Source of the DNA: Streptomyces sp. NBC_00370
GTDB lineage: Bacteria; Actinomycetota; Actinomycetes; Streptomycetales; Streptomycetaceae
NCBI RefSeq assembly: GCF_036084755.1
Contig: NZ_CP107968.1
Span: forward strand, 5,418,501 to 5,482,500
Length of the DNA stretch: 64,000 nt
Direction: 5' to 3'
Part shown: positions 13,577-27,278 of the stretch, piece by piece
How positions within the stretch are numbered: position 1 is the first letter of the stretch
Layout: each line of letters opens with the position of its first letter
The notes under the pieces: generated by a model
Databases searched by the model: none
What the model was told of the DNA's origin: nothing
What the model saw: the letters and a program-made list of their open reading frames with translations, nothing else
Position numbers and translations under genes: made by a program

Positions 13577-13719
13577 CGTTCCTCGTCCGGCGGTCTCGCC
13601 GTCCGGCGCGGGTTGCGGATCGGGTCGCGGTCGCCGTGGTCGTGGTAGTGGTCGCCGTGCGACCGGTGGTCGCTTACCGGGGTGGTTGCGGTTGTCGCCG
13701 GGGGTCGTTCCGGGGTCGT

Positions 13720-24004: not shown

Positions 24005-25141
24005 ATGGGAGTGGATGTGCGATTGCGGGCCGTCGTGGCGCTGGCCCAGGCCATGGCGGCGGCCCACACACCCCGCGAGTCCTGGCTGGCCGCGGCGCAG
24101 GGCGCCCGCGAAGCGCTCGGCGGGAGCTTCGGCGCGCTGTCGGTCTGGGAACGCGACCTCGGCCGGCTGAAGGTCCTCGTCAACGCGGGGGAGCGGACAC
24201 CGGACGAGGACGAGTTCCCCGAGGACGAGACGTACCCCGTCCACCAGTTCCCCGAGATCGCCGAGTTCCTGCACGAGAAGTGGGCGGGCGGCGGCGGTCC
24301 CCACGCCTGGGTCGAGACCTCGGACGGCCCGACCGGCGGCGACCCCGGCTACTGCCACCAGCGCGTCGCCGCGCTGCGCCGCCGGGGGCGAGGCTGCTGT
24401 GTCGTCGCGCCGATCATCCTGCACGGGCGCGCCTGGGGTGAGCTGTACGTGGCCCGCCCGCTCGGCGCCGCGCCCTTCGGCGAGGACGAGGCGGACTTCG
24501 CGACCGTCATCGCCGCGGTCGTCGCGGCGGGTCTCGCCCAGACGGAACGCCTCGAAGAGGTGCGCCGCTTGGCCTTCACCGACCCGCTCACCGGCCTCGC
24601 GAACCGGCGCGCGGTCGACATGCGCCTCGACGAGGCCATCGCGGGCCATCGTGCGGACGGCTCGGTCGTCAGCCTCGTCGTCTGCGACCTCAACGGCCTG
24701 AAGAAGGTCAACGACACCCACGGCCACGCGGTGGGCGACCGCCTGCTGGAACGATTCGCCTCGCTGCTGTCCCTGTGCGGCGCGAAACTCCCCGGCGCGC
24801 TGGCGGCGCGGCTGGGCGGCGACGAGTTCTGCCTGCTGACGGCGGGCCCTTCGGCGGACGAGGTGATCGCGGTCGCGACGGAGCTGTGCGAGCGCTCGGC
24901 GTCGCTGGAGATGGGGGAGGGCGTGGCGTGCGGGGTCGCCTCGACGGGCGACCCGATCGGGAACGTCACGTCGGCGCGACGCTTGTTCCGGCTGGCGGAC
25001 GCGGCGCAATACCGCGCGAAGGCGGCGCGCGCGCCGCTGCCGGTGGTGGCGGGGCGGGACGGCGCGGTGATCCGCCTGGCGGACGCGCCGCCGAGGGGCG
25101 AGTCCCGCCGCGTGTTCCGGGACGCGCCTCCGCCGGGGTGA
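24005..25141 (+). CDS. GAF-GGDEF diguanylate cyclase, CdgE-like
   Basis: A 378-aa soluble diguanylate cyclase making cyclic di-GMP, the messenger that blocks Streptomyces development through BldD. Residues 5-175 form a GAF-like sensor, and 190-345 the GGDEF domain with FTDPLTGLANRRAVD and an intact RLGGDEFCLL. The inhibitory I-site RxxD, expected five residues before GGDEF, is absent (PGAL there), so feedback inhibition may be missing. No transmembrane segment. From memory the position corresponds to S. coelicolor cdgE (SCO4931), hence the name is tentative. It ends directly at the inverted repeat starting at 25143. Confidence 0.87.
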   Translation: MGVDVRLRAVVALAQAMAAAHTPRESWLAAAQGAREALGGSFGALSVWERDLGRLKVLVNAGERTPDEDEFPEDETYPVHQFPEIAEFLHEKWAGGGGPHAWVETSDGPTGGDPGYCHQRVAALRRRGRGCCVVAPIILHGRAWGELYVARPLGAAPFGEDEADFATVIAAVVAAGLAQTERLEEVRRLAFTDPLTGLANRRAVDMRLDEAIAGHRADGSVVSLVVCDLNGLKKVNDTHGHAVGDRLLERFASLLSLCGAKLPGALAARLGGDEFCLLTAGPSADEVIAVATELCERSASLEMGEGVACGVASTGDPIGNVTSARRLFRLADAAQYRAKAARAPLPVVAGRDGAVIRLADAPPRGESRRVFRDAPPPG

Positions 25142-25230
25142 CGGTCGTGTCCTGCGCGGTGTCGCCTTCCGGCGGGGGGTGCGGGTCTCGGTTGCGGTTG
25201 TTGGCACACGTGGCGGTGTCCGGGTCCTGC

Positions 25231-25295
25231 GGAGGGGGGTGTCCGGACTGCTTGTCGCATGAGCTCCTTCGCTTTACGTCCGGACACCCCCCTCC
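25231..25295. repeat. Repeat element B palindrome, copy 3
   Basis: 18-bp perfect inverted repeat with 29-nt loop (arms 25231-25248 and 25278-25295). All 65 bp, loop included, equal the reverse complement of 6921-6985. Confidence 0.85.
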
Positions 25296-25407
25296 TCCGG
25301 CCCCGGCCCCCTCCCCCCGGCGGTCAGCCACACCCGTCCGCGTCAGCGCGGGTGAGCGGTGCCCTGCGGGCAGCGGGTCCGGGTAGCCGTCCCGATGGGG
25401 CGGGGGC

Positions 25408-25519
25408 TGAAGGGGGTCGTGCAGGGGTGGTGTCCGGAGCGTAGAGCGTGATTTGTGGCGCATCTCGGCGGTGGCTCCGCGTCTCGGGAGTACGCGCCGT
25501 AAATCATGCAGCGCAGGAC
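25408..25519 (-). repeat. Repeat element A, copy 3 (inverted)
   Basis: Third 112-bp copy; closest to copy 2 over the hairpin and to copy 1 at its outer edge. Confidence 0.82.
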
Positions 25520-25572
25520 ACGACCCCGGAACGACACCCGGCAACCACCGCAACCAAGACCCGCAACCCCGA

Positions 25573-25626
25573 ACCGCGCCGGACGGCGACACCGCGCCGG
25601 ACGGCGACACCGCGCCGGACGGCGGC
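25573..25626. repeat. Three tandem 18-bp repeats upstream of hutH
   Basis: The unit ACCGCGCCGGACGGCGAC is repeated three times head to tail, the last with one change (GGC for GAC at its end). A related piece recurs at 25669-25683. They lie about 105 bp upstream of hutH; role unknown. Confidence 0.75.
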
Positions 25627-25730
25627 ACCGCCCCCGGCGACCACCGCAACCCAGACCGCCAAGCGAACCGCGCCGGACGGCGAAACCCCCGACGGTGACA
25701 CGCGTGGATTCAATCCGTACGCTCGTGAAT

Positions 25731-27278
25731 ATGAATATGCACACCGTCGTGGTCGGCACCGCCGGGACCACCGCCGAGGATGTCATCGCCGTCGCCCGCG
25801 GCCGCGCGAAAGTTCAGCTCGACGGCTCCGCGCTCGACGCGCTCGCCGCCGCCCGGGAGATCGTCGACGCGCTCGCCGCCAAGCCCGAGCCGGTGTACGG
25901 GGTCTCCACCGGGTTCGGGGCGCTCGCCACGCGGCACATCAGCCCGGACCTGCGCGCGCAGTTGCAGCGCAACATCGTGCGCAGCCATGCCGCGGGCATG
26001 GGCCCGGCCGTCGAGCGGGACGTCGTGCGCGCGCTGATGTTCCTGCGGCTCAAGACCGTCGCTTCGGGCCACACCGGCGTACGGCCCGAGGTCGCGCAGA
26101 CCATGGCGGACGTACTGAACGCGGGGATCACGCCCGTGGTCCACGAGTTCGGTTCCCTCGGCTGCTCAGGCGACCTCGCGCCGCTGTCGCACTGCGCCCT
26201 GACGCTCATGGGCGAGGGTGACGCCGAGGGCCCCGACGGTGTCGTACGGCCGGCCGGCGAGCTGCTCGCCGCGCACGGCATCGCGCCGGTCGAGCTGCGG
26301 GAGAAGGAGGGGCTCGCGCTGCTGAACGGGACCGACGGCATGCTCGGCATGCTGGTCATGGCCCTCGCCGATCTGCACCGGCTCTACACCTCCGCCGACA
26401 TCACGGCGGCGCTGAGCCTGGAGGCCCTGCTGGGCACGGCCAAGGTGCTCGCGCCCGAGCTGCACGCGATCCGGCCGCACCCCGGGCAGGGGGCCAGCGC
26501 CGACAACATGCTGCGGGTGCTCGCCGGGTCCGGGCTGACCGGGCACTTCCAGGAGGACGCGGCGCCGCGCGTGCAGGACGCGTACTCGGTGCGGTGCGCG
26601 CCGCAGGTGGCCGGGGCCGGGCGGGACACGCTCGGGTACGCGCGGCTGGTGGCGGACCGGGAGCTGGCCGCCGCCGTCGACAACCCGGTGGTGCTGCCCG
26701 ACGGGCGGGTCGAGTCGAACGGCAACTTCCACGGCGCGCCCGTCGCGTACGTACTGGACTTCCTGGCCATCGCCGCCGCCGACCTGGGGTCGATCGCCGA
26801 GCGCCGTACGGACCGGCTGCTCGACAAGAACCGGTCGCACGGGCTGCCGCCGTTCCTCGCCGGTGACCCGGGCGTCGACTCGGGGCTGATGATCGCCCAG
26901 TACACGCAGGCGGCGCTGGTCAGCGAGATGAAGCGGCTCGCGGTCCCGGCGTCGGTCGACTCGATCCCGTCGTCGGCGATGCAGGAGGACCACGTGTCGA
27001 TGGGCTGGTCGGCGGCGCGCAAGCTGCGGACCGCCGTCGACAACCTGTCGCGGATCATCGCCGTCGAGCTGTACGCGGCGACCCGGGCGATCGAGCTGCG
27101 TACGGGGCTGACGCCGGCGCCCGCCTCGCAGGCGGCGATCGACGCGCTGCGGGCGGCCGGGGTCGCGGGCCCGGGGCCTGACCGCTTCCTCGCGCCGGAC
27201 CTGGCGGCGGCGGACGCGTTCGTACGGGAGGGACAGCTGGTGGCGGCGGTCGAAGCGGTGACCGGGCCGCTGGCGTAA
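25731..27278 (+). CDS. hutH: Histidine ammonia-lyase
   Basis: A 515-aa enzyme deaminating L-histidine to urocanate, first step of histidine use. The self-formed MIO cofactor should come from the triad in SLGCSGDLAPLS, Cys-Ser-Gly instead of the common Ala-Ser-Gly; this is, as I recall, normal for Streptomyces HutH. Other landmarks: YGVSTGFGALATRHI, MQEDHVSMGW and a high match to the S. griseus protein. The start is ATG 25731 or 25737. No other hut genes are adjacent. Confidence 0.94.
   Translation: MNMHTVVVGTAGTTAEDVIAVARGRAKVQLDGSALDALAAAREIVDALAAKPEPVYGVSTGFGALATRHISPDLRAQLQRNIVRSHAAGMGPAVERDVVRALMFLRLKTVASGHTGVRPEVAQTMADVLNAGITPVVHEFGSLGCSGDLAPLSHCALTLMGEGDAEGPDGVVRPAGELLAAHGIAPVELREKEGLALLNGTDGMLGMLVMALADLHRLYTSADITAALSLEALLGTAKVLAPELHAIRPHPGQGASADNMLRVLAGSGLTGHFQEDAAPRVQDAYSVRCAPQVAGAGRDTLGYARLVADRELAAAVDNPVVLPDGRVESNGNFHGAPVAYVLDFLAIAAADLGSIAERRTDRLLDKNRSHGLPPFLAGDPGVDSGLMIAQYTQAALVSEMKRLAVPASVDSIPSSAMQEDHVSMGWSAARKLRTAVDNLSRIIAVELYAATRAIELRTGLTPAPASQAAIDALRAAGVAGPGPDRFLAPDLAAADAFVREGQLVAAVEAVTGPLA

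Follow-up and report, generated by a model that had tools for sequence, protein, structure and literature searches.

MITEs are short, non-coding, multi-copy elements, intergenic and palindromic. Three other groups of sequences resemble the repeat studied here, and the papers that describe them are cited from excerpts of their text. REPINs are inverted doublets of REP sequences that form hairpins, with compensatory changes, with singlets and with RAYT genes nearby; the paper mentions Streptomyces 0 times (PMC3116915). CGTC-tagged REPs have been reported from five phyla, which do not include Actinobacteria (PMC3733652). In S. clavuligerus, structured 3′ transcript ends without a U-tract have been documented (PMC8269248). 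From the open-licence PMC literature on Streptomyces MITEs, REPs and intergenic repeats, no title on a family of paired hairpins was retrieved, and the available part of PMC4681348 contains nothing on such repeats.

The family that we describe in Streptomyces sp. NBC_00370 behaves like REPINs and BIMEs, without being assigned to them as a member. The excerpts of PMC3116915 describe the same features for REPINs and BIMEs: an inverted doublet of palindromes accompanied by singlets, an extragenic position, compensatory changes, and units that are more conserved than the spacer. Inverted palindromic doublets together with singlets were found both in NBC_00370 and in G064, a second carrier genome. 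Unlike REPINs, each unit of the Streptomyces family has its own stem of 16–18 bp and a conserved loop, the doublet is framed by arrays, the stems differ within one genome (G064) while the loop is fixed, and 10 of the 11 carriers tested lack the domain PF01797. The family shares with the CGTC-tagged REPs (PMC3733652, excerpts) its palindromes, a position mostly downstream of coding regions and the apparent lack of a dedicated transposase, but no doublet with arrays is described in the available part of that survey. Its GC-rich and stable hairpins near gene ends also recall the structured or bidirectional transcript ends of Streptomyces that lack a U-tract (excerpts of PMC8269248). It differs from these ends in being multi-copy, homogenised and provided with a conserved loop. 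In addition, attC sites and telomere palindromes were considered and set aside.

Anatomy of the doublet and its 15-bp inverted pair

In the window (the whole stretch of 64,000 nucleotides that was analysed), the actual repeat unit consists of two hairpins, B and A, inverted relative to each other and flanked by outward-facing arrays. Between cdgE and hutH, on the plus strand, this unit begins with a left outer arm (25143–25222), a partial array (P) unit recognised by inverted similarity and by the alignment of copies. The B hairpin module follows (25223–25312), with a perfect stem of 18 bp (25231–25248 paired with 25278–25295), a loop of 29 nt (25249–25277) and an inner flank; it is supported by identity in 23 of 23 doublets and by covariation. 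A variable middle spacer, here in its short form (25313–25408) and delimited by alignment of the NBC_00370 doublets and of Streptomyces sp. AcH 505, separates B from the A hairpin module (25409–25519). This second module, delimited by alignment, is in inverted orientation, has a variable loop and also occurs alone. The right array of P units, identified from the spacing of a 15-mer, covers positions 25511–25690 with an approximate right border, 25511–25525 being the start of a unit. On the minus strand, the own-genome search revealed a second doublet (L010; 6609–7060), of the long form and located between divergent genes, and also an A singlet (L025; 13714–13838), which has a 15-mer match and an outer array at roughly 13586–13713. 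Against Rfam, positions 24800–25900 gave 7 matches at E values up to 1, all of them below the gathering scores.

When the 383-bp unit was searched in the NBC_00370 chromosome, a single contig of 8.6 Mb, at least 91 matches were obtained, 40 of 105 candidates having been scored. The matches listed, grouped by hand, correspond to about 33 sites: A stands alone at 9 of them, B alone at 1, and the other 23 are doublets, of which 22 are near-full and one, L024/L026, has an extended middle. The other matches listed are either short outer P units or the opposite strand of the B palindrome, the P-type matches never being more than about 0.7 kb away from an A or B copy. L026, which is the same site as L024, was omitted from the 15-mer and gene-position counts. 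No match to the unit was found in the plasmid and phage collections. The B block (90 nt) is identical in all 23 doublets; the A module has a variable loop between its first 42 nt, which 21 of the 23 doublets share without any change, and its last 25 nt, which all 23 share. When 22 doublets were aligned in one orientation, the outer arms, the arrays and the middle varied among copies beside this constant B block. The middle usually measures about 100 nt (short form) or about 140 nt (long form), with a full range of 46–239 nt. According to a hand count with an assumed chromosome middle at 4.3 Mb, 18 of the 23 doublets point away from the middle, a bias that may simply reflect gene orientation.

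The original prediction described a gene-free repeat unit, framed by 15-bp perfect inverted ends and mobilised in trans as a MITE. The inverted pair does exist: GGTCGTGTCCTGCGC occupies positions 25143–25157 on the plus strand and its exact reverse complement positions 25511–25525. As announced, the first of these begins one base after the stop codon (25139–25141) of the GGDEF gene cdgE, and the repeat turned out to belong to a dispersed, gene-free family in its own genome. With up to 2 mismatches, the 15-mer has 5 matches in the window for 0.88 expected (0 of 100 shuffles gave as many), and a third exact copy, at 13714, forms the edge of the A singlet. However, these 15-mers are not the ends of an element. 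The left one is present in only 1 of the 23 doublets, precisely that of the cdgE–hutH interval at 25 kb, and the right one, at the A edge, is exact in 12 of 23. Farther out, the right 15-mer is repeated with a spacing of 81–86 bp at L009, L014 and L024 (up to 1 mismatch) and of 101–205 bp at L003, L023 and L030, and the tandem unit that it begins measures about 83 bp where the spacing is regular. Moreover, the inverted similarity continues outside 25143–25525, with a 29-nt pair (90%) reaching 25570 and a 52-nt pair (73%) reaching 25602. The 15-mer is a unit boundary (on the right, the start of a tandem P unit) and no terminal repeat. The 6.6-kb copy had been credited with one such end; its A edge carries a variant with 3 mismatches, and no match was found there at up to 2 mismatches. 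Like MITEs, the repeat is short, non-coding, multi-copy, intergenic and palindromic; unlike them, it has no constant terminal inverted repeat.

Occupancy of sites and search for a transposase

The loop motif is absent from the cdgE–hutH interval in all 39 genomes where both genes still adjoin (24 without the family and 15 with the family or with doubtful hits). Among the genomes examined, the element is found at this place only in NBC_00370 and in the near-identical AcH 505, in which a gap (N run) covers B. Since 39 of 39 relatives lack the motif and these two strains are filled, the copy probably arrived at this interval; it would have arisen in the lineage of NBC_00370 and stayed there thereafter. 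The comparison with relatives that the original prediction had proposed thus gave sites without the loop motif, and not a unit present in all of them.

We then considered the other sites of the family. In the named collection, AcH 505 is the only genome with an NBC_00370-type loop, the records of NBC_00370 itself being possibly excluded. All 8 of its stretches with an intact loop of this type sit at sites occupied in NBC_00370, and queries with the flanks of the other 15 doublets revealed 8 more filled sites. Overall, 16 of the 23 doublet sites are filled in AcH 505, none was shown to be empty and the other 7 are uncallable. Sites shared with other species were linked by at least 250 aligned bases on at least one flank. 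By this rule, 8 of 28 usable NBC_00370 sites have the element beside the same gene in another species, with both flanks aligned at L003, L007, L016 and L017 and one flank at L004, L010, L022 and L030. In the same way, 25 of 84 site groups are common to two or more genomes, in a count for which 12 of the 152 loci were set aside, as their motif was not recognisable, and into which G218 (L060, a doubtful hairpin) was not entered. The L016 site, where the element was found in five further genomes, shows turnover, with hairpins in G175 and G265 and a 67-bp gap in G191. The filled sites of AcH 505, the 8 shared sites out of 28 and the interiors that change in place all argue against recent hopping.

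Turnover is also visible between two related genomes. The hairpin string that was searched is absent from G129 at 9 of the 9 G174 sites fetched; the further site query omitted L202, whose site had been covered before, and L208, which has no motif, and the L200 site was unfetched. The aligned flanks of these two genomes are 85–97% identical, and the intergenic DNA is non-aligning. At four of the junctions, read by eye, no target duplication was readable, the intergenic DNA of the element-free sites being non-aligning. At one site filled in G174, the orthologous position in G129 shows, also by eye, a plain terminator-type palindrome instead.

These results bear on the classical MITE, i.e. a non-autonomous element with 15-bp TIRs, which a DDE transposase would move in trans. 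The copies dispersed in the NBC_00370 genome, and presence and absence at orthologous sites (0 of 39 relatives at the cdgE–hutH interval, AcH 505 being filled), are what such an element would leave. However, only 1 of 23 doublets has the 15-mer at its two edges and no constant TIR was found, the array length is variable, no target duplication was readable, no movement was seen relative to AcH 505 at the 16 sites that could be called, and none of the ORFs next to 2 doublets and 6 A singlets looks like a transposase by eye. A classical MITE with 15-bp TIRs is thus rejected as highly improbable, while dispersal to new sites is supported. What had been noticed at this locus is therefore confirmed in part, and its interpretation as a MITE retains its dispersal and loses its terminal repeats.

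The domain PF01797 (Y1/RAYT) is absent from NBC_00370 and from 9 more of the 11 carriers, G194 being the only carrier in which it is present. Among 6 non-carriers, G012 gave two matches. Since one carrier and one non-carrier have this domain, its presence does not track the family. This observation is a difficulty for a strict REPIN, in which an inverted REP doublet would be mobilised by a RAYT (Y1 HUH transposase). Inverted doublets and singlets, the extragenic position and the compensatory changes all correspond to what the excerpts of PMC3116915 report, but the units exceed the 20–40 bp given for REPs and 10 of the 11 carriers, including NBC_00370, lack PF01797. We therefore hold a strict REPIN to be quite improbable.

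Possible exchange between copies, and exchanged stems in relatives

At three loci compared between NBC_00370 and AcH 505, the flanking genes are 98.8–99.4% identical, B 100% and A 97.9%, vs. 89.9% for the middle (77.5–98.0%) and 87–89% for the arrays. The middles could be compared at four loci. At two of them (L009 and the cdgE–hutH site), the AcH 505 middle is closer to other copies than to the NBC_00370 allele; at the two others (L019 and L002), the NBC_00370 allele is the best match, with 95.1% and 98.0% identity, respectively. The middle of the cdgE–hutH copy has the short form in NBC_00370 and the long form (152 nt as measured) in AcH 505. Exchange between copies, i.e. gene conversion, would be the simplest account of these differences, with two of the four loci for it and two against it. 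The AcH 505 sequence is a draft assembly in which N runs occur at the repeats, so that assembly error could mimic part of the conversion signal. In this draft, the repeats coincide with assembly gaps. If conversion is right, the family offers a marker of this process on a Streptomyces chromosome.

B was also searched in 295 genomes. Homologues were detected in 35 of them at E ≤ 0.001, with many matches that are short and partial; three candidates were scored per genome, and copy numbers are thus lower bounds. The foreign homologues keep the loop CTGC..CGCTTTACG and have different stems. Because the exact motif CGTAAAGCGAAGCAG is present in only 3 of 121 genomes and not in NBC_00370, whose loop has an insertion, a covariance model (R1) was used instead. 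R1 matched 17 of the 295 genomes, with a single match in six, and the occurrence of the family is patchy across the genus; with at most 17 candidates scored per genome, these copy numbers are also lower bounds. In a tree of one gene, hutH, the carriers are split into three or more groups, between which non-carriers are placed. As R1 was built from B-type hairpins and misses those of A type, such as the ones of G225, the family is under-counted. G225, whose hutH is 86% identical, has A-type hairpins (TAGAGCGTGATTTGTG...TAAATCATG) at the two loci examined, L041 and L292, and it has no R1 match; some of the “non-carriers” may therefore have the A type.

G064 contains 49 exact loop motifs. Among the 33 listed, 26 make 13 inverted pairs and 7 are single; 12 of these 13 pairs have a spacing of 201–265 bp and one of 711 bp. 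The stems differ among the G064 copies and the loop is constant. The pair at 711 bp instead of about 200 bp (L066, positions 1500–2211) flanks a gene that is VOC/glyoxalase-like by eye, which could be a cargo or separate two half-elements. At L068 of the same genome (around 1390–1830), the inverted arms match by eye past the element into the gene-near flank, as though one of the arms had served as a template for its counterpart.

The stems stay well matched despite their exchange. In a set of 20 hairpins taken from 11 genomes, both sides have changed in 14 of 18 pairs (covariation score of 0.586 vs. 0.157 after shuffling), and the 16-pair helix presents no one-sided change, with one cell U:G. 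In the hairpins with a compact loop, 58 of which are distinct, with 41 distinct 13-nt arms (three stemless loop matches, two of them identical in sequence, were left out), 787 of 812 pairs are Watson–Crick. The other pairs comprise 3 G:T, 11 A:C and 11 of other types. At even odds, the chance of at most 3 G:T among the 14 G:T and A:C mismatches is 0.03; these 14 mismatches come from the compact-loop hairpins of other species and not from the NBC_00370 type. Selection on RNA pairing should make G:U exceed A:C. This excess was not observed, which hints, from few mismatches, that the palindrome may be maintained as DNA. If the proposed reading is right, the pattern of stem exchange provides a sequence-only test of DNA vs. 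RNA selection on a palindrome. The compact loop contains GCGAAGC, a DNA mini-hairpin of unusual stability, and the NBC_00370 loop is without it.

The matching of the stems could be kept at the DNA level by template switching or by arm-to-arm repair. Alternatively, a single-stranded or cruciform hairpin may be recognised. In the most developed form of this alternative, the family would be a RAYT-free counterpart of REPINs, for which some host protein acting on single strands or cruciforms would recognise the DNA hairpin, found new copies, copy them over and homogenise the pairs; we regard it as unlikely. The hairpin to be recognised would then be made of the conserved CTGC..TTTACG loop and of a stem that is freely exchangeable as long as it is matched.

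Position at gene ends and origin of the family

The position of the copies relative to genes was determined with a codon-usage gene caller trained on the window. Of the 23 NBC_00370 doublets, 22 adjoin at least one gene 3′ end: 11 of them are enclosed by two such ends and the other 11 have one. The remaining doublet, the 6.6-kb copy, is located between gene starts. Among the 6 A singlets called, 5 adjoin at least one 3′ end and L023, which is between gene starts, adjoins none. Of the 56 foreign loci, which include orthologous sites of several genomes, 29 are between two 3′ ends, 26 beside one, 0 between starts and 1 uncalled. A gene ends on the B side of 19 doublets, its stop codon being 45–140 bp off the hairpin module. 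Thus, both in NBC_00370 and elsewhere, the family lies where terminators are expected, beside gene 3′ ends and rarely between starts. Selection that removes insertions from genes and promoters also leads to such a bias. Place and shape alone suggest a terminator role, and the 6.6-kb doublet and the A singlet L023, located between gene starts, argue against it.

These positions would agree with a purely host-made family of terminators or 3′ protectors, inherited vertically and without mobility. The sites common to several species and the plain terminator-type palindrome found by eye in G129 where G174 has the element point in the same direction, and structured 3′ ends without a U-tract are common in S. 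clavuligerus according to excerpts of PMC8269248. However, the 39 other syntenic genomes are all without the element at the cdgE–hutH interval, so that copies seem to be founded anew; moreover, the family is patchy (R1 in 17 of 295 genomes) and G:T does not exceed A:C in the stems. A host-made origin without any mobility therefore seems rather unlikely.

We consider it reasonably probable that the family is a REPIN/BIME-like doublet of Streptomyces, located mostly at gene 3′ ends, rarely founded, homogenised by conversion and perhaps serving as a two-way transcript end. New copies would be founded rarely, through some enzyme or recombination, and copies would then homogenise one another through recombination (gene conversion). 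The hairpins could be transcribed from either side and thus form a two-way 3′ end, at which a stem without a U-tract would stop RNA polymerase or protect the end of the mRNA. If this is true, a REPIN-like repeat of Streptomyces disperses and remains homogeneous in the absence of the REPIN-associated transposase, and in GC-rich genomes the family points to candidate two-way transcript ends.

Finally, we looked at the region upstream of hutH (positions 25690–25740 of the window). Most of the relatives examined have (G)TAAGGGG before AGTGACA at this place. In NBC_00370, the repeat array stops just before GTGACA and (G)TAAGGGG is absent; the insertion may therefore have altered the control of hutH.
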